Assembly (NCBI RefSeq): GCF_024464185.1
Contig: NZ_JANHAU010000005.1
Coordinates: 186,001 to 250,000 of the forward strand
DNA: 64,000 nucleotides
Reading direction: 5' to 3'
From: Haloarchaeobius salinus
GTDB taxonomy: Archaea; Halobacteriota; Halobacteria; Halobacteriales; Natrialbaceae
The notes below the pieces were generated by a model. It did not search any database and was not told where the DNA came from. It saw only the letters and a program-made list of their open reading frames with translations. The position numbers were made by a program, and so were the translations under genes. Positions 3,274 through 13,011 of the stretch are shown piece after piece (positions within the stretch are counted from its first letter, which is position 1; each line of letters starts with the position of its first letter).

Positions 3274-4260
3274 GTGCACAGGATCCAGCTGGACAACAGG
3301 GAGTTCGAAGGGGCGAACGCGGTGTACCTGCTCGGCACCGAGACCGACGGGCCGACGACGCTGGTCGACACCGCGACCGCACAGCCGACCGTACGGGCCG
3401 AACTCGGTGCCGAACTCGACGCAGTCGGGGTTTCGCTCGCGGACGTCGACCAGGTGCTGCTCACGCACTTCCACGGCGACCACGCCGGCGGTGCAGGGGC
3501 GGTGCAGGCGGCCGGCGACGCCGTGGTCCGCGTCCACAATGCGGACGCCGCTCTCGTCGAGCGCGATTCGACCGCGTTGTCCGCCTTCGATGACCGACAT
3601 TCGGCGCTGTTCGACCACTGGGGGATGCCCGAACCGGCGGCCGCGAAGCTCCACGAGAGCCTCGCCGACGACGCCCTCTGGTCGGACGAGGACGCATCGG
3701 TCGAGCCGTTCGACGACGGTGACCGGTTCGCAGTCGGCGACCGAGAGGTCGAGGTCTGGCACCTCCCGGGCCACACAGTCGGGCAGTCCGGGTTCGTGCT
3801 GGACGACGGCGACGAGCGAGCCCTGTTCAGCGGTGACGCACTGCTCCCGAAGTACACCCCGAACGTCGGCGGGGCGGACGTCAGGGACGAGGACGCACTG
3901 CAGCACTACCTCGACGCACTCGTCCGTATCGTCGACGGTGGGTTCGACGTCGCCTATCCCGGGCATCGCCAGCCCCTCGAGGAGCCGGCGGAACGGGCGC
4001 GCCACATCCTTGCCCACCACCGCGAGCGGACCGACCGCGTCGTCGACGTCCTTCGGACCCACGGACCCGCCGACGCGTGGACCGTGAGCGCCCACCTGTT
4101 CGGCGACCTCGAGGGCATCCACATCCTCCACGGCCCCGGCGAGGCGTACGCCCACCTCGAGCACCTTCGGACCGCCGGTCACGTCGCGGTCACGGACGGC
4201 GCGTACGAACTCCTCGACGAGCGGCCGGACGTTGCGGCACTGTTCCCGACGCTCGAGTGA
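3274..4260 (+). CDS. MBL-fold metallo-hydrolase
   Basis: A 328-residue zinc hydrolase of the metallo-beta-lactamase superfamily (glyoxalase II/RNase Z-like branch). The metal motif HFHGDHAG lies at about residues 66-73, the second histidine in LPGHTVGQSG at about 167, the bridging aspartate in FSGDALL at about 187, and the last histidine in YPGHRQPL at about 230. The C-terminal 90 residues are helical (DRVVDVLRTHGPADAWTVSA), like the winged-helix tail of LACTB2-type proteins. The likely start is a GTG, because no ATG precedes the conserved strand MHRIQLDN. The substrate is unknown. It stands alone between two leftward genes. Confidence 0.88.
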   Translation: MHRIQLDNREFEGANAVYLLGTETDGPTTLVDTATAQPTVRAELGAELDAVGVSLADVDQVLLTHFHGDHAGGAGAVQAAGDAVVRVHNADAALVERDSTALSAFDDRHSALFDHWGMPEPAAAKLHESLADDALWSDEDASVEPFDDGDRFAVGDREVEVWHLPGHTVGQSGFVLDDGDERALFSGDALLPKYTPNVGGADVRDEDALQHYLDALVRIVDGGFDVAYPGHRQPLEEPAERARHILAHHRERTDRVVDVLRTHGPADAWTVSAHLFGDLEGIHILHGPGEAYAHLEHLRTAGHVAVTDGAYELLDERPDVAALFPTLE

Positions 4261-4433
4261 CCCCACCGGGACCGAACGACAGTTCAAGTCGTCGGGGCAG
4301 TCGGGCGAGGCAGGAATCATTGCGGGCGATCGACCGAACGGCGACTCGGGATCTATCGCCATGCCGCCGCGGGAGGAGATACGGGCGGTGGCCTCGGTCG
4401 ATGGTCGACGGTTTGGATTCTTCAGATACCGTC

Positions 4434-5237
4434 TCAGAGCGTTCGAATCCCCGCCTCCCCGAGGTCCGTCCGGACCCGCAGGCGGTGCCCACCGGCGTTC
4501 AAGCGCCCCGTGATGTGGTCGTCCTCGCGGATCTCGTCGCCGAGGACGATGTCGCTCCTCACAGAACTCCCGCGTAGGTCGAGGTCCAGATCCAGGTCGC
4601 CAAGGATGCTCACCTCGACTTCACCGATGTCGGCCGTCACGTCGACGTCCCTGCGGAGCCGACGGACCTCGACCCGCACGTCGCCGATGTCGGTGCTCGC
4701 GTGGTCGAGCCCGGCGATGTCCGTCACCTCGATGTCTCCGGTCTGGGTCGAGAGGTCGAGGAACCCGTCGACGCGTCGAGCTTCGATGTTGCCGACACCG
4801 ACGTGGACGACGCTGTCGCCCGTCGTATCACGGAGCGTCACACGACCGACATCCACGTCGACCGCCTCGACGACGAGGTCGCGGGGCATCCTGACGTCGA
4901 GGGTGATGCTCCCGCGGTCCTCGAACACGGACCCGGAGCCGCTGTAGCCGCCGGTCAGTTCCCACAGGTCGTCGGACCGGGCCGCCGTGATGGTGAGTCG
5001 CTCGAAGTCGTTCTCGCCACCGCGCAGGCGCTTCTCCGCGCGGTACTCGATGTGGTCGATGTCCGCCCCGGTGACGCTCACGTCGCCGACCGCGTTGCTG
5101 ATACGGATCCGCTCGATGCCGTCCGCTGGAATCGACTCCATCGTCGCCTCGCTGGTTCGCATTTCGAACGTCGTGCAGCCGGCGACCCCCGTCGCGAACG
5201 CCAGCGCCCCGGCTCCGAGGAAGCTACGTCTGTTCAT
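4434..5237 (-). CDS. DUF4097-family Tat lipoprotein
   Basis: Secreted lipoprotein of 267 residues. The N-terminus MNRRSFLGAG has the twin-arginine motif, followed by a hydrophobic stretch and the lipobox GVAGC, so it is expected to be Tat-exported and lipid-anchored on the outer face of the membrane. The body is a series of short beta-strands with repeated acidic turns (ISNAVGDVSVTG, STDIGDVRVEV, TADIGEVEVSIL, LDLDLDLRG), which is the DUF4097 beta-helix pattern. The frame is open 48 codons further upstream, but the Tat signal fixes the start at the internal ATG. The function is unknown; adhesin-like roles are proposed for the family. Confidence 0.85.
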   Translation of the reverse strand: MNRRSFLGAGALAFATGVAGCTTFEMRTSEATMESIPADGIERIRISNAVGDVSVTGADIDHIEYRAEKRLRGGENDFERLTITAARSDDLWELTGGYSGSGSVFEDRGSITLDVRMPRDLVVEAVDVDVGRVTLRDTTGDSVVHVGVGNIEARRVDGFLDLSTQTGDIEVTDIAGLDHASTDIGDVRVEVRRLRRDVDVTADIGEVEVSILGDLDLDLDLRGSSVRSDIVLGDEIREDDHITGRLNAGGHRLRVRTDLGEAGIRTL

Positions 5238-5396
5238 GGGGTAGATACGCCTCTCACGGTCAAATACTAGAGAGTAAGCATCGAGATAGCGCACAGCACG
5301 CATGTGTCGGTACCACCCAGTCACTCCGGGAGCACGTCGGCTGGAAGTGGCAGGGCAGCATGGTTTCGGTCCGATATCCACTTTCCTCTACTCACC

Positions 5397-5405
5397 TTTA
5401 ATATC
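5397..5405 (+). promoter_or_regulatory. TATA box for HxlR regulator
   Basis: TTTAATATC sits 30 to 22 bp upstream of the ATG, the spacing expected of a leaderless haloarchaeal transcript. It is a canonical AT-rich TATA element, unlike the TAACAA boxes found in the glycan half of the window. Confidence 0.6.
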
Positions 5406-5426
5406 GAGCACGGAGATGGACCGTCA

Positions 5427-5801
5427 ATGACCGACGAGACAGGTGACTCGACCGCCACCGAGGAACTCGAGGTCTGGTGTGCCGGCGAGGACTGGTGTCC
5501 GGTGACCACGACCGCCTCGCTGATCGGACGGAAGTGGCACCCGGTCATCGTCCACCGGCTCCTCGAACACGGGCCGAGCGGGTTCAACGAGCTCCAGGAC
5601 GATGTCGACGGGATCTCCTCGAAGGTGCTCTCCGACAGCCTCGAGAACCTCGAGGAGAAGGGACTGGTGGACCGGGAGATCGTCAGCGAGAAACCGTTCC
5701 GGGTCCAGTACTCGCTGACCGAACACGGCGCGTCGTTGGAGCCGGTGATCGTCTCGATGCGGGACTGGGGACTCGAACACCTGACCGAACCGACGGAGTG
5801 A
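5427..5801 (+). CDS. HxlR-family winged-helix transcription regulator
   Basis: A 124-residue DNA-binding protein. After an acidic N-terminus comes CPVTTTASLIGRKWHPVIVH, the HxlR start in which the cysteine and GxKW are family hallmarks. The recognition helix region is ISSKVLSDSLENLEEKGLVD, then the wing VQYSLTEHGASLEPVI. The ATG giving MTDETG was preferred over an upstream frame extension because a TATA box lies 30 bp before it. HxlR proteins often respond to redox or aldehyde stress. The convergent neighbour is a disulfide-reductase-like flavoprotein, but joint regulation is only a guess. Confidence 0.88.
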   Translation: MTDETGDSTATEELEVWCAGEDWCPVTTTASLIGRKWHPVIVHRLLEHGPSGFNELQDDVDGISSKVLSDSLENLEEKGLVDREIVSEKPFRVQYSLTEHGASLEPVIVSMRDWGLEHLTEPTE

Positions 5802-5858
5802 CGCCCGCCTGGATGGCGTCCGGAGTGCGACGTCTCCGTCCCATCTCGCAACTGCAGG

Positions 5859-7289
5859 TCAGTCCTCGAGTGTTCCGTTCAGTACCTTCGCCGCGACGAG
5901 CACGGGGTCCCAGACGGGGCTGAACGGTGGTGCGTACGCGAGATCAGTCCGCTCCAGCTCGTCGACGGTCATCCCGTTCTCCAGTGCCGTCGCGACGATG
6001 TCGATCCGGATCGCCGCCCGGTCTTTCCCCGCGATGGTCCCGCCGAGGAGCTTGCCGGTCCCCCGGTCGGCCGTCAGGGTGACCGTCGTCTCGGAGCCAC
6101 CGGGGTAGTAGCCGGAGCGCGAACCCGCAGTCACGGTCTCCGAGACGGGGACGAACCCCGCCTCTCGAGCGCGCTCGTGGGTGACAAGGCCGGTTCGGCC
6201 ACACTCCATATCGAAGGCCTTCACGACCGCCGTCCCCGCGATCGCCCCGACCGGGGTCGGGTCGCCTGCGACGGTCTGGCCGACCGCCCGCCCCGCCCGG
6301 TTCGCCGTCAGCCCGAGCGGCACCCACGCCGGACTGCCCGTGACCGTGTGGCGCATCTCCGCACAGTCACCCGCCGCGTACACCCCATCGACGCTGGTCT
6401 CGCCGTACCTGTCGGTCGCGATGGCCCCTGACTCCCCGAGGTCCACCGGCGTGTTGGCTACGAGCTCACTGTTCGGACGGATACCGATGCCGACGACCAC
6501 CAGGTCGGCGTCGACCGTCCCCGCGGACGAACAGACCGTACCGACAGCCCCATCGCCGTCGGATTCGAGCCGGTCGACCTCCTCGCCGAGATGCAGGTTC
6601 ACTCCGTTCTCCCGGAGCGTCCCGGCCACCTCGTCCCCGACGGCTTCCCCGAACGGTTCCAGGAGCCTGTCCGGTCGCTGGAACAGGTGGACGTCGAGTT
6701 CGTGTGCGGCGAACGCCTCCGCCATCTCCACGCCGACGTAGCCGCCACCGACGATTGCGGCCGTCTCCGGGGGCTCCCTCGACAGGAACCGTTCCACGAG
6801 CTCCGTGTCGACGTACGGGACGTCCGGCTCCGCGAACTCGGGGTTCTCGGGGTCGGTGAGGAAGGCCCGGACCGCCGCCGCGCTGTCCATGCCGTGGATG
6901 GTGAACGCACCGTCGAGTCGGGCACCCTCGATGGGGTCGGAGACGGCACGCGCACCGGTCGCGACCAGCAGCTCACCGTATGGTTGTTCGAACCGCCCGT
7001 CTGGACCATCGACGGTGACGGTGCTCGCGTCGGTGTCCACGCCGACGACCTCGTGTTCCCGCCGGAGGTCGATGCCCCGCTCGGCCGCCTTCTCCGGGGT
7101 CAACGACAACATGTCCATCAGCGACTCGACTTCACCCTTCACGTAGTACGGCATGCCGCACTGTGCGTAGGAGACCCAACGCCCCTTCTCGAAGACGATG
7201 ACCTCCCTGCCGGGGTTCTCTCGCCTGTGTTTGCTGGCCGCACTCAGTCCTGCCGCGTCGCCGCCAACGATCACGAACGGGTCGGACAT
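5859..7289 (-). CDS. FAD-dependent pyridine nucleotide-disulfide oxidoreductase (CoA-disulfide reductase-like)
   Basis: A 476-residue flavoprotein. The FAD-binding motif IVGGDAAGLSAAS is at about residues 7-19, followed by SYAQCGMPYY with Cys44 in the position of the single active-site cysteine of CoA-disulfide reductase and NADH oxidase. An NAD(P)H Rossmann motif (AIVGGGYVGVEMAEA) lies mid-protein and the second FAD motif (VYAAGDCAE) follows. The C-terminal dimerisation domain ends FSPVWDPVLVAAKVLNG. The start chosen is the ATG of MSDPFVIVGG; the frame runs 48 codons further without homologous sequence. It would keep small thiols reduced in the cytoplasm. NADH oxidase or sulfur-reductase activity is also possible. 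Confidence 0.88.
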   Translation of the reverse strand: MSDPFVIVGGDAAGLSAASKHRRENPGREVIVFEKGRWVSYAQCGMPYYVKGEVESLMDMLSLTPEKAAERGIDLRREHEVVGVDTDASTVTVDGPDGRFEQPYGELLVATGARAVSDPIEGARLDGAFTIHGMDSAAAVRAFLTDPENPEFAEPDVPYVDTELVERFLSREPPETAAIVGGGYVGVEMAEAFAAHELDVHLFQRPDRLLEPFGEAVGDEVAGTLRENGVNLHLGEEVDRLESDGDGAVGTVCSSAGTVDADLVVVGIGIRPNSELVANTPVDLGESGAIATDRYGETSVDGVYAAGDCAEMRHTVTGSPAWVPLGLTANRAGRAVGQTVAGDPTPVGAIAGTAVVKAFDMECGRTGLVTHERAREAGFVPVSETVTAGSRSGYYPGGSETTVTLTADRGTGKLLGGTIAGKDRAAIRIDIVATALENGMTVDELERTDLAYAPPFSPVWDPVLVAAKVLNGTLED

Positions 7290-8173: not shown

Positions 8174-8201
8174 TTAACCAACATTACGACTCGTTGGTTA
8201 A
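8174..8201. repeat. palindrome TTAACCAAC-N10-GTTGGTTAA
   Basis: A perfect 9-bp inverted repeat with a 10-bp spacer lies in the gap between two convergent genes. A second copy with 10-bp arms and a 7-bp spacer lies at 12214-12240 inside the origin. Being between two 3' ends it is unlikely to be an ordinary promoter operator for its neighbours; it could be a protein-binding site or a two-way terminator stem. Confidence 0.75.
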
Positions 8202-9324: not shown

Positions 9325-9347
9325 AATTCTCGAAACGGTGGTGTGTC
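9325..9347 (+). repeat. ORB-like origin repeat a
   Basis: AATTCTCGAAACGGTGGTGT matches the core shared by the origin repeats (AATT, GAAACGGTGGTG, then a G/T-rich tail). It lies just downstream of the orc1/cdc6 stop codon, so the gene itself sits between origin boxes. The G/T tail is weaker here (TGTCG rather than GGGTGT). Confidence 0.75.
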
Positions 9348-9388
9348 GCGGCGGACACCTTCGAGTCGACACCAGCTGGGTCGACAGT

Positions 9389-10912
9389 TCAGGGGAGCGA
9401 ACGGTCGTCCCCGATGGTCTTGAAGTTGATGTTCGCCACACGCGTCGTGTCCTTCAGCACCTCGACGGCGATCTCCGTATCCACCTGGAGCTGGTACTGC
9501 CAGGCGGGACCGCCGATCGAACCGGCGGCGACCTTCTCCCCGTCAGCGATACCCTGCATATCCAGCTCGCGAAGGTGGTCCTTGAACCGGCGCTGCCCGA
9601 GCTTGTCGGCGTCGACCTCCGACGCGATGCTCTTGTACACCCCGTAGATGGGTTTCGCACGGACGGGGGCGTCGCCGGAGAGTTCGAGTGCGGTGAGGGC
9701 CGCGAGCGCCAGGTGCGCCTGCGTCGTCATCTCCCGCATCGCCTCGACGACTGCCTCCCGCTCGACGAGCGCCTGGGCCTCCCGAGCGTGCTCGGCGGTC
9801 ACCATCGTCTCGTCGCTCTTGTCGGCCAGCTCGCCCGCCTTCCGGAGGTACTTGATCGCCTGCCGAGCGTCCCCGGTGTCCTGTGCGGACAGCGCGGCGA
9901 TGAGCGGGATGACGTCGTCGGTGAGTATCTCGCTCCGGAAGATGTACTCCTTCCCCGAGTTGTCGACCTGTACCGGTGTTCCATCCACAGGTGTCCCGTC
10001 CACAGGTGTCCCATCCGACGGACCGGTCGGCTGGTCCCCTGCCGGTTCCTCGATCTCCGGACCAACCGGTTCCGTCGTTCCATCGACGGCCGCCTCGTCG
10101 TGAGTCCGCTGTTCCTCTGGTTCACTACCTGCCGTCCCGGTCGGTGACGTTGTCGACGAATTCGTCGACCCGCTGTCTCGGTCGGTGTCTCCCGTGCTCG
10201 TCGCCCCCTCGACGGGAACGAGTTCCGTATCGCGGAACGCTTTGGCAGCCCGTCGACGGAGGATCTGCTGGAGCTGCGTCGCGTCGTACGGCGAGAACAG
10301 CACGGAGTCGTCGTACAGCGAGCTCTTGACCTTCGGACTGAGGTTGTCCCGCCACTGGAGGTCGTTGCTGATACCGATGATGCTCGGGAACACGTGATCG
10401 TCGACGTATCCCTGCGCCCGTGCTCTGGGGAGGCTGTAGAGGATTCTGTCGTCGTCACCGAGCGTGTCGATCTCGTCAAGGACGATGATGATCGTGCCGC
10501 CGATATCGTTCATCGCCTCGAACATCATGTCCATCACGACGTCCGTGGCGTAGCCAGTCGGTCTCGTCTCACCGGTGAGCTCCTGGTAGATCCGGGACGC
10601 GGCCTTGTAGGAGGTCGAGAGGTCGTGCGACTCACACGAGACGTAGGCCGTAGTGAGGTTGAGGTGGTCTGACTCCTCCTCGGCGTGCTGCTGGAGCTCC
10701 GAGAGCTTCGCCTGTGCTGCGGCCGTCTTTCCCTGTCCAGCTTTCCCGTGCAAGAAGACGTTGTTCGCTCCGACACCCCGGGCTGCAGGTGCGAGAGACA
10801 TGTGCAGGTCGTCCATCTCCCCCTTCCGTTCCGGGAGTTCGTCCGGATAGTGCTCCTCTCGGAGGACCTCCTCACGTTTGAAGATCGGCGAGGTCTCGGA
10901 GAACTGGGTCAT
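9389..10912 (-). CDS. Orc1/Cdc6 replication initiator protein
   Basis: A 507-residue origin-recognition AAA+ ATPase that would bind the adjacent ORB repeats and load the MCM helicase. The Walker A motif GKAGQGKT is at about residues 56-63, Walker B IIIVLDEIDT at 141-150 and sensor 1 GISND at 180-184. A C-terminal winged-helix domain (AKPIYGVYKSIASEVDADKL onward) supplies DNA binding. Between the ATPase core and the lid, residues about 235-320 form a low-complexity acidic insert with three tandem DGTPV units. This makes the protein about 90 residues longer than usual Orc1/Cdc6 proteins. The start codon lies 24-33 bp after a CTTTAAGTAA promoter element, which fits a leaderless mRNA. Confidence 0.95.
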   Translation of the reverse strand: MTQFSETSPIFKREEVLREEHYPDELPERKGEMDDLHMSLAPAARGVGANNVFLHGKAGQGKTAAAQAKLSELQQHAEEESDHLNLTTAYVSCESHDLSTSYKAASRIYQELTGETRPTGYATDVVMDMMFEAMNDIGGTIIIVLDEIDTLGDDDRILYSLPRARAQGYVDDHVFPSIIGISNDLQWRDNLSPKVKSSLYDDSVLFSPYDATQLQQILRRRAAKAFRDTELVPVEGATSTGDTDRDSGSTNSSTTSPTGTAGSEPEEQRTHDEAAVDGTTEPVGPEIEEPAGDQPTGPSDGTPVDGTPVDGTPVQVDNSGKEYIFRSEILTDDVIPLIAALSAQDTGDARQAIKYLRKAGELADKSDETMVTAEHAREAQALVEREAVVEAMREMTTQAHLALAALTALELSGDAPVRAKPIYGVYKSIASEVDADKLGQRRFKDHLRELDMQGIADGEKVAAGSIGGPAWQYQLQVDTEIAVEVLKDTTRVANINFKTIGDDRSLP

Positions 10913-10935
10913 TACGCAGTGAACACACGCGCCGG

Positions 10936-10945
10936 TTACTTAAAG
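10936..10945 (-). promoter_or_regulatory. TATA box for orc1/cdc6
   Basis: CTTTAAGTAA on the minus strand, 24-33 bp upstream of the initiator gene ATG, is a canonical haloarchaeal TATA element at leaderless spacing. It lies between the gene and the nearest inverted ORB, so binding of the initiator there could autoregulate the gene. Confidence 0.6.
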
Positions 10946-10998
10946 CCCTGCTTTCAGGAATGTCGAGAACGTCTGGAATTTGGTCGCGGACCCACCAC

Positions 10999-11025
10999 AC
11001 CCACACCACCGTTTCGGGAATTCGC
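10999..11025 (-). repeat. ORB-like origin repeat b (inverted)
   Basis: On the minus strand this reads GAATTCCCGAAACGGTGGTG followed by TGGGTGT. It is the only box in the reverse orientation and lies on the orc1/cdc6 side of the AT-rich block, facing the eight forward boxes. Confidence 0.85.
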
Positions 11026-11135
11026 CGGAGAAGGTGGGGAGGGGGGAGAACCGTCCCTCGAGCCGGGTAGGGCTGGAACTCGGGCGTTTCAATGGGTAAA
11101 GATAGCCGTTCTGTCCACGAACGTCGTCCATCCCC

Positions 11136-11245
11136 TTATATTATTATTTATAACGTTAACGGTTAGTAGTAGTAAGGGTGGAAGTAGAAGCCGTCGAGAA
11201 ACTGTTTAGCGAGGAGAGGACCCGAGATAATTTTTTGTTTATCAC
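11136..11245. other. AT-rich duplex-unwinding element
   Basis: Two strongly AT-rich runs (11136-11176 and 11225-11245) in an otherwise GC-rich genome lie between the inverted ORB and the first forward ORB. That is where an archaeal origin is expected to melt. The intervening bases contain AGTAGTAGTAAGG. Confidence 0.8.
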
Positions 11246-11321
11246 AGTTCCCGTCTCATTCGTGTTGGCTATCCAACTCGACGGTGTCTCTGCAGACCCG
11301 ACCCCCGGTCTCTGTTGCGAC

Positions 11322-11349
11322 GAATTGCTGAAACGGTGGTGTGGGTGTG
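11322..11349 (+). repeat. ORB-like origin repeat c
   Basis: GAATTGCTGAAACGGTGGTG followed by TGGGTGTG. First forward box after the unwinding element. Confidence 0.85.
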
Positions 11350-11553
11350 CGGTACTGATCGACCAGACACCGAGAGTTGTTCGAAACCGTCCTCTCGCCC
11401 GGCGGCCACCGTCTATCCGTCCTTCCACCCGTCCGTTCGTCAGCTTCGCTCCCCGAACTTCCCCATCTGGATCGCGACAGCTGGTCGTTCGACGCCGTGC
11501 CCCATCTCGCGTCTCTCTGTACCGACTCGGTTCCTGGGGAGAGTTTCACCGGT

Positions 11554-11580
11554 GAATTGCCGAAACGGTGGTGTGGGTGT
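11554..11580 (+). repeat. ORB-like origin repeat d
   Basis: GAATTGCCGAAACGGTGGTG followed by TGGGTGT, nearly identical to repeat c and 232 bp from it. Confidence 0.85.
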
Positions 11581-11594
11581 CCCGGGTACGTGGC

Positions 11595-11666
11595 TGTGTT
11601 CGACTACCAGTCTGTGTTCGACCACCAGTCTATGTTCGACCATCAGTCTGTGTTCGACCACCGATC
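11595..11666 (+). repeat. four tandem 18-bp repeats
   Basis: Four consecutive units of the form TGTGTTCGACCACCAGTC with one to three changes each sit between ORB repeats d and e. Being 18 bp they keep one frame open, which creates a spurious ORF. They may bind a protein or simply be a replication-slippage product in the origin. Confidence 0.85.
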
Positions 11667-11678
11667 TCTCGTCTAGCT

Positions 11679-11706
11679 GAATTGCTGAAACAGTGGTGTG
11701 TGTCGG
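11679..11706 (+). repeat. ORB-like origin repeat e
   Basis: GAATTGCTGAAACAGTGGTG followed by TGTGTCGG. It differs from the consensus by GAAACA in place of GAAACG and has a weaker G-tail. Confidence 0.8.
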
Positions 11707-11789
11707 TCGTCGATGGACGTGACCGACGCGAACACCCTTCTCCCCGGACCGAGAAACTGCACAGTGGAATCGACCAGTGTCCCCGTCTC

Positions 11790-11816
11790 GAATTCCTGAA
11801 ACGGTGGTGGGGGCGT
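11790..11816 (+). repeat. ORB-like origin repeat f
   Basis: GAATTCCTGAAACGGTGGTG followed by GGGGCGT, with a strong G-run. Confidence 0.85.
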
Positions 11817-11889
11817 CCCGTCTTACTGGAGGGTCGGTCGATCGATATCGGTATGGGTGGATTACCCGTCCCGACTGCAGGCGCGGCGA

Positions 11890-11915
11890 GAATTCCTGAA
11901 ACAGTGGTGGGGTGT
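11890..11915 (+). repeat. ORB-like origin repeat g
   Basis: GAATTCCTGAAACAGTGGTG followed by GGGTGT, 100 bp after repeat f. Confidence 0.85.
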
Positions 11916-12030
11916 CCCGACTATGGGATCGTCCAACTGACACGGGGGGAGAGTCGCTCGACCCAACTGGCAATCGTATCCGATTACTACTCCGAGGGAT
12001 GGCCGCCCACCGGGACGGGGACTGGCGTGC

Positions 12031-12056
12031 GAATTCTCGAAACGGTGGTGGGTGTC
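12031..12056 (+). repeat. ORB-like origin repeat h
   Basis: GAATTCTCGAAACGGTGGTG followed by GGTGTC. The left half matches repeat a, downstream of orc1/cdc6. Confidence 0.85.
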
Positions 12057-12088
12057 CCCCACCGGCTGGGTAGTCTCCGATTACTAGT

Positions 12089-12117
12089 GAAATTCCTGAA
12101 ACGGTGGTGGGGGTGTG
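12089..12117 (+). repeat. ORB-like origin repeat i
   Basis: GAAATTCCTGAAACGGTGGT followed by GGGGGTGTG, only 58 bp from repeat h. This is the longest G-run in the set. Confidence 0.85.
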
Positions 12118-12213
12118 GTGGGAGGGTAGACGGGATCCGTCGGCCTCTGCCTGTGACGTGATTCATTGCCGGTCGATGGGCGAGCGCGGTGCGACGCCCT
12201 TGAGCAAAGTTCC

Positions 12214-12240
12214 TTAACCAACATCTGCTCTGTTGGTTAA
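12214..12240. repeat. palindrome TTAACCAACA-N7-TGTTGGTTAA
   Basis: A perfect 10-bp inverted repeat with a 7-bp spacer, inside the origin between ORB repeats i and j. It matches the palindrome at 8174-8201 on the other side of orc1/cdc6. The total length (27 versus 28 bp) and the arm sequence are conserved but the spacer is not, as expected of a binding site for a dimeric protein. Confidence 0.8.
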
Positions 12241-12430
12241 CGACACTCCCGTACGTCTTCCAGCCACTGCGCTTCCTCACGAGGTGAACGGCCCACCGAC
12301 TCGCAGGAGTGCTCGAGAAGTATGGACCGCATCGATCCGGACACTGTCCCGGTTCGTGACTGGCCCGACCGGCGTCTGGCACGAACCACTGGTACGGTCG
12401 ACGCCAGGCTGGTCGAACCGATACCACGAC

Positions 12431-12458
12431 GATAATTGCTGAAACGGTGGTGGGTGTC
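12431..12458 (+). repeat. ORB-like origin repeat j
   Basis: GATAATTGCTGAAACGGTGG followed by TGGGTGTC. It is the last forward box, 343 bp from repeat i and just downstream of the HTH gene stop. Confidence 0.82.
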
Positions 12459-12513
12459 CGTCGACGGTCCGTGGCCCGGCGACGGTCCGCGGCTACTGTT
12501 CGGGCTCGCGTGA

Positions 12514-13011
12514 CTACGGTTCGGGAACGTGTTGAGGCTGGTGGACCGGCTGTTCTGCCAGCCGTTCGAGTTCGGACAGCGAGTCCTCGATGGTGTAGGC
12601 CACACCGTCACCGTCGACGGACGGTGAGAGTCGGACCAGTCTGTCGTCCGCGTAGATCGCGATCGAGAGTATCGGGAACTGGATGACTTCGTAGTGCTCT
12701 CCGACGAACTCGTTGGTGATCGACCGCCTCGTGAACGCGGGTTCGAGCGTCCGATCGGACAGCTCTGCCCACCTGGTGAACTCCGCGTATTTCTCGCGAG
12801 CGAACTCACACCAGGTGTCTTCTGCAGCGGGTGACAGTCGACGTGTCCAGGTGTGCCGTTCGAACTCGTCGACGACGCCCCGGTCGGCGAGTCGCTCGAT
12901 CCGCTGGATGACGTCGTTCTGTTTCTCGTACGTTCCGTACATCGATGCACAGACGAACAGCTCGACGGTGAGTGAGCTGTTGTCGAGGTGGGTGTCGAAT
13001 TGGCTTGTCAT
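12514..13011 (-). CDS. haloarchaeal HTH-domain regulator (HTH_63-like)
   Basis: A 165-residue soluble protein. It starts with a beta strand and the conserved ELFVCASMYGTYEKQNDVIQ segment, then a helix-turn-helix-like stretch (RIERLADRGVVDEFERHTW) and a C-terminal alpha/beta part (YEVIQFPILSIAIYADDRLV). This matches a widespread haloarchaeal family annotated as HTH-domain protein. The frame is open about 100 codons further upstream, but that part has no family features, so the ATG of MTSQFDTH is used. The gene transcribes toward the origin; no link to replication is known. Confidence 0.78.
   Translation of the reverse strand: MTSQFDTHLDNSSLTVELFVCASMYGTYEKQNDVIQRIERLADRGVVDEFERHTWTRRLSPAAEDTWCEFAREKYAEFTRWAELSDRTLEPAFTRRSITNEFVGEHYEVIQFPILSIAIYADDRLVRLSPSVDGDGVAYTIEDSLSELERLAEQPVHQPQHVPEP

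Follow-up and report, generated by a model that had tools for sequence, protein, structure and literature searches.

Which DNA molecule is replicated from the cluster of repeats around an orc1/cdc6 gene in Haloarchaeobius salinus, and are these repeats recognized by the neighbouring initiator? The cluster lies in a 64,000-nucleotide stretch of contig NZ_JANHAU010000005.1 (assembly GCF_024464185.1, positions 186,001 to 250,000), hereafter called the window; the contig is referred to as C5, and coordinates given without a contig or locus name are window positions. The original prediction, made from the letters of the window, had described a replication origin with ten repeats resembling origin recognition boxes (ORBs). 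Our analysis indicates an origin linked to orc1/cdc6, very likely that of a secondary replicon (megaplasmid) of ~0.6 Mb, at which the Orc protein would act through the ORBs.

Ten ORB-like boxes with the consensus (G)AATTNYYGAAACRGTGGTGKG were identified around the gene, in agreement with the prediction. A 28-position matrix gave them 33.5-44.3 bits (10/10 boxes), against a maximum of 10.6 bits for any other site in the window and a best score of 14.7 bits across 15 simulated 64-kb sequences; as the matrix was derived from these ten boxes, their own scores are inflated and the gap to the remainder is the informative part. Of the 13 copies of the 12-mer GAAACRGTGGTG in the 3.85 Mb genome, ten lie within this locus, and with up to two mismatches the bare 12-mer had 17 matches in the window against 5.8 expected, a count reached in 0 of 100 shuffles. 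The variant GAAACAGTGGTG was found in two of the ten boxes and a GGTGGTGKGGGT tail on most of them. The arrangement was also as predicted, with one box past the orc stop, one inverted box upstream and eight direct boxes past an AT-rich block. Spacings of the direct boxes (59-343 bp) and the proximity of the last box to a helix-turn-helix gene were likewise confirmed, ORB 10 lying 54 bp downstream of the HTH_63 stop codon (gene at 12514-13011, - strand). The AT-rich block contains the 100 bp with the highest AT content of the 64 kb (11137-11236, 63% AT vs 32% average). The features are listed below; for each + strand box the first coordinate is the start of its AATT, and the inverted box lies at about the coordinates given.

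9325-9351, + strand: ORB 1, just past the orc stop (33.5 bits).
10996-11022, - strand: ORB 2, inverted, on the orc side of the AT-rich block (43.3 bits), conserved.
11120-11250, no strand: AT-rich block, candidate unwinding element, containing the AT-richest 100 bp of the window.
11323-11349, + strand: ORB 3, partner of the inverted ORB 2 (44.3 bits), conserved.
11555-11581, + strand: ORB 4, direct array, matrix match.
11680-11706, + strand: ORB 5, direct array, GAAACA variant, matrix match.
11791-11817, + strand: ORB 6, direct array, matrix match.
11891-11917, + strand: ORB 7, direct array, GAAACA variant, matrix match.
12032-12058, + strand: ORB 8, direct array, matrix match.
12091-12117, + strand: ORB 9, direct array, matrix match.
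12434-12460, + strand: ORB 10, isolated, beside the 3' end of the HTH_63 gene; an isolated last box in all four module-carrying species of the genus.

Between ORB 4 and ORB 5 there are also four 18-bp tandem copies (CTGTGTTCGACCACCAGT-like, 11594-11665), and none were seen in the other species of the genus.

The product of the adjacent orc1/cdc6 gene exceeds 300 aa and carries both AAA+ and winged-helix domains, and inverted ORBs flank the AT-rich region adjoining the gene. This Orc matches TIGR02928 with 341.6 bits (cut-off 181.3), contains the Cdc6_lid and Cdc6_C domains and can be aligned with the ORB-bound crystal structures 2v1u and 2qby. Homologues without the acidic insert listed below have 441 aa, and the aligned blocks end at aa ~237-246 and restart at aa ~298-311.

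9389-10912, - strand: orc1/cdc6 initiator gene, 507 aa, with AAA+ domain, Cdc6 lid and C-terminal winged helix.
9983-10201, - strand: acidic low-complexity insert of ~73 aa between the AAA+ core and the lid, present in the genus and absent from the plasmid homologues.
10940-10976, - strand: orc-proximal block (TATA-like A/T-rich stretch plus GAATGTC motif), conserved in the 15-locus alignment; probable orc promoter.

The original prediction had also called for a search of the genome for further orc genes and ORBs. Besides the window orc, eight additional Orc-like loci were found, with different boxes or none recognisable. One of them encodes the oriC1-type Orc of this genome (at 142 kb on contig C1; NF001625, 654.7 bits vs a cut-off of 501), and the boxes there, GTTCCANNCGAAACRARGGGGTG, have a 5' half and spacer unlike those of the window box. 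An oriC1 identity of the window locus was rejected, since the window Orc reaches 275.9 bits against the cut-off of 501 for the PRK00411.1-3 equivalog type and since the true oriC1-type Orc has a different box. The sequence of the window box had been called unusual. It is so only in comparison with oriC1: numerous genera have the same box, and the half made up of GAAAC and a G-string is commonplace among haloarchaeal ORBs.

The pairing of initiator and box was then compared across genomes. Within the genus, the Orc was present in four of six genomes, each with 10-11 boxes in the same order and the same adjoining Usp gene; in these four species the boxes were 81-88% identical to those of the window and the inter-box DNA 35-56%. 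A protein search for the window Orc, covering 195 genomes of the order, retrieved six more close relatives outside the genus, in several families, and boxes were found at all six. These loci (L115-L120) were found by protein alone and form the unbiased part of the comparison, other members of the tree having been found partly via the box. Five of the six have the complete layout, and the locus of genome G057 is broken. In the same search, Orcs at most 61% identical to the window Orc were without the boxes. The layout, consisting of one or more boxes past the orc stop, an inverted box upstream, an AT-rich gap and direct boxes, recurs wherever the Orc is intact and at least ~73% identical, and it was preserved at 20/20 family loci with an intact pair, in many genera. 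The classical archaeal design of inverted boxes about an AT-rich block, as originally proposed, is thus borne out across loci. In a tree of 36 Orcs the box-bearing proteins formed a single clade (support 100/100). At the broken locus of G057 (L120:6032-9000), the family orc lacks its N-terminal part and adjoins TnpB-like genes, and two downstream boxes are retained.

The module was also found on plasmids of Halomontanus rarus, Salinigranum rubrum and Halalkalicoccus, and in two Halorubrum records. Two closed plasmids, one of 92 kb from Halomontanus rarus and one of 119 kb from Salinigranum rubrum, have no other orc locus, which lends indirect support to autonomous replication from the module. 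A gene for a primase-like protein is also present on the larger of the two, which may therefore have a second initiator; for the 92 kb plasmid no second initiator was seen among the listed genes of an incomplete gene table. The single clade, the layout at all intact loci and the closed plasmids support the earlier suggestion of a distinct initiator-origin pair with a family-specific ORB. The boxes are very probably the landing sites of the adjacent Orc, and initiator and boxes, being inherited together, appear to travel among haloarchaeal plasmids and chromosomes as one cassette, shared with plasmids and genomes of distant relatives.

As for the replicon served, C5 (273 kb) contains none of the 57 tRNA matches of the genome, where about four would be expected by its size. 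A 580 kb contig from a sister species, likewise without tRNA, is collinear with it, and C5 joins the two ends of this longer contig, suggesting that the 580 kb replicon is a circle. Because a tRNA-free contig is here collinear with a 580 kb tRNA-free replicon, the window locus is probably a megaplasmid origin and not a main-chromosome origin. Only two Orcs are encoded on the 580 kb replicon, one of the window type and a sister ~60% identical in the AAA+ domain. In H. salinus the sister orc (at 162 kb on contig C7) is cut off from its origin core by a TnpB-type open reading frame (ORF); in the sister species a sister-type box adjoins its orc. Given that split, the replicon may rely chiefly on the window origin. 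The TnpB-type ORF occupies L106:13441-14811 (G000:C7 ~163.4-164.8 kb), and the sister boxes lie at L106:14966 (-), 15225 and 15467 (+).

A further conserved component was found between the inverted boxes.

11164-11190, + strand: TAG-repeat element TAGTAGTAGTAAGGGTGGAAGTAGAAG, at the midpoint of the inverted pair, conserved at 20 loci.

In the core alignment of 15 loci the order outward from orc is an A/T-rich TATA-like block, GAATGTC, the inverted ORB, an AT-rich stretch, TAGTAGTAGTAAG, TTTATA and the first direct ORB. Distances were measured at the 20 loci with an intact Orc-box pair. The TAG element lies 119-146 bp from the inverted ORB (138-146 bp in 18/20), with unconserved sequence in between. 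Its distance to the direct ORB is 124-126 or 146-147 bp in 18/20; the step of ~21 bp between these latter distances would correspond to two helical turns, which is suggestive only. The H. salinus genome has only two copies of the element, one at the window locus and one, differing by a single mismatch, at the locus of the sister orc. The boxes of the sister locus have AATTGC in common with the window boxes, but their 3' half differs (AATTGCGGACAACCCCGGGGG). The possibility of a general haloarchaeal origin feature was rejected, as the element was found at none of the other Orc loci in this genome or in others. The TAG element between inverted ORBs is conserved and previously undescribed, new here. 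Two observations point to a role apart from binding of the initiator at the ORB: the element keeps a nearly constant distance from the inverted ORB across DNA that is itself unconserved, and a weaker form of it recurs with a sister Orc family that has an ORB with an altered 3' half. Only tentatively do we suggest that it might have a function at the origin, either as the archaeal version of the DnaA-trio, with Orc engaging a single strand in melting, or as a haloarchaeal equivalent of ucm, with an accessory factor meeting MCM hexamers.

Loading of MCM over an AT-rich block by Orc on an inverted ORB pair is the established archaeal scheme. At the present locus, the window Orc would bind the ten AATT-type ORBs, and at the inverted pair of ORB 2 and ORB 3 (~320 bp apart) it would face the AT-rich block from each side. 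The block would be unwound, and the Orc on the inverted pair would load MCM there, and the central TAG element may serve in melting or as the site of an accessory factor. The seven boxes ORB 4 to ORB 10, together with ORB 1 behind the gene, would be extra Orc sites tuning initiation. Most likely they would titrate Orc that is in excess, as has been proposed for oriC2D of H. hispanica, an ORB-rich region of the oriC2-cdc6E locus with 11 ORBs that restrains oriC2 (PMC3936714).

Several points weigh against an active origin working in this way. GC skew shows no clear switch at the window locus along C5 or the 580 kb replicon (the two closed plasmids with the module gave no clear origin signal by GC skew). 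AATT-type boxes are scattered in genomes without a close Orc, though at least one such case is a relic of the same module. Two of seven predicted H. hispanica origins with inverted ORBs were without activity as autonomously replicating sequences (ARS) in Wu et al. 2012 (PMC3528665), and dormant origins exist in H. mediterranei (PMC4595724). The titration role, drawn from analogy only, faces the difficulty that the titrating cluster lies behind cdc6E in H. hispanica and mostly beyond the AT-rich block here. It is conceivable, though in our judgement unlikely, that the locus is only a reserve or dormant origin, which its Orc recognises and which is intact yet normally silent, and that the replicon is fired from the sister orc locus on C7. 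Orc-linked dormant origins are documented in haloarchaea (PMC4595724; PMC3528665), and the second orc locus of the 580 kb counterpart replicon has intact inverted boxes of its own; in H. salinus, however, that locus is disrupted between orc and origin core, whereas the window module is under clear constraint and two closed plasmids of other genera have no orc locus besides it.

The positions of some boxes, with ORB 2 close to the orc start, ORB 1 between orc and the Usp gene and HTH_63 adjoining ORB 10, would also fit operators for autoregulation by Orc or regulation by the HTH_63 protein in place of origin elements. This is very improbable, since boxes and Orc clade are found together across many genera, while the neighbours in the inspected plasmid records differ from Usp and HTH_63; the inverted geometry about the AT-rich block is constant across loci, and the array past that block has no promoter logic. 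It is also very improbable that the locus belongs to the Haloarcula oriC2-cdc6E type, an already characterised chromosomal family, even though both have ORBs flanking the orc gene on each side and a large ORB cluster (PMC3936714). Conservation of cdc6E extends throughout Haloarcula (PMC4441112), but only one of 32 genomes of that genus encodes a protein closely related to the window Orc. An oriC2 homologue has been reported for H. lacusprofundi (PMC3936714), apparently our genome G163, which has a match of 61% only, in the AAA+ domain. The ORB cluster is also on the opposite side. The rejection of this identity rests on the distribution of the Orc.

Boxes away from a close Orc were found at several loci. 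In Halopenitus persicus, L033:2577-2872 is a relic of the module, of which a box, the orc promoter motif, the last orc codons and a downstream box are left. Its boxes stand beside an unrelated Orc, and they were rejected as evidence against specificity, orc being reduced to its promoter and C-terminal end. AATT-type boxes in genomes with no close Orc were also seen at L039:3188-3280, L041:2647-3620 and L059:4694-5360, beside distant Orcs or none; these are possibly relics, or a box shared with another Orc.

Other repeats were seen near orc genes. The inverted repeat TAACCAAC-N9..12-GTTGGTTA has five sites in the 3.85 Mb genome (spacers of at most 16 bp): two bracket the window module (~8174-8201 and 12214-12240), two bracket another orc on C7 (G000:C7:20156 and 23154) and the fifth lies elsewhere on C7. 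Among 79 genomes of the order, 41 contain it when the halves are allowed to be up to 30 bp apart. A sample of 68 sites from other genera had spacers of 22-25 bp throughout, and 19 of these sites lay within 3 kb of an orc (a raw count). The repeat may serve secondary replicons in partition or regulation. A single orc with two ORB-like repeats, GACACTGGACATGGTGGTGTG and GCACTGGAACCAGTGGGGTGG, is present at L105 ~3900-6100 (G000:C7 ~21-23 kb); its two repeats resemble the double-ORB cases in PMC3528665. Upstream of the orc on contig C4, boxes of the form TTCACTTGCAACRGTGGTG occur at L104 ~4200-4640 (G000:C4 ~25.2-25.7 kb), and a primer for one J7 ARS in PMC5350488 contains a stretch, GACACACACCACTGTTGCAAGTGAAG, matching these boxes.

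The family provides a natural series for origin specificity, with one Orc clade, one box and a fixed geometry in many hosts, together with two closed plasmids on which its orc is the only one and a sister clade with half of the box altered. Recognition of ORBs by the initiator, extra ORBs as an initiator sink and the central non-ORB element could all be tested in tractable haloarchaea. The results also support the view that haloarchaeal secondary replicons draw from a common pool of mobile origin cassettes.

Among known systems, the TAG element resembles the bacterial DnaA-trio (PMC8287927) in being a run of 5'-TAG-3' triplets (3'-GAT-5') in the unwinding region, and its TAG TAG TAG TAA comprises at least three consecutive triplets with a central A. 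The bacterial search definition places the trio at most 16 bp from the initiator box (PMC8287927), whereas the TAG element is ~140 bp from the nearest one (usually 138-146 bp from the inverted ORB) and its initiator is Orc1/Cdc6, not DnaA. With Sulfolobus ucm / UBP (PMC12141716) it shares the character of a conserved motif midway between inverted ORBs within an AT-rich region, but the sequences are unrelated, and ucm is present at all Sulfolobus origins whereas the TAG element is confined to the window Orc family and, in weaker form, the sister family.

The many extra ORBs, here one behind the gene and seven beyond the inverted pair, recall H. hispanica oriC2-cdc6E (PMC3936714). Since the ORB-rich region oriC2D lies downstream of cdc6E, while the main array of the window lies upstream past the AT-rich block with a single box downstream, this likeness would be one of function and not of membership. 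With haloarchaeal oriC1 and archaeal Orc1-1 origins the locus shares inverted ORBs and a box with a GAAAC core and G-string. A text search for the box string gave no haloarchaeal match in searchable papers. Orc-linked haloarchaeal origin families besides oriC1, with family-specific ORB-Orc pairs, have been described (PMC3528665). Compared with the text of that paper, the window ORB differs in its fixed AATT 5' half. Like those families, the window locus combines one Orc family, one G-string ORB family and inverted ORBs about an AT-rich region, has a patchy distribution over chromosomes and plasmids, and has ORBs on both sides of the gene, as they sometimes do. The locus is a new member of a known origin type.

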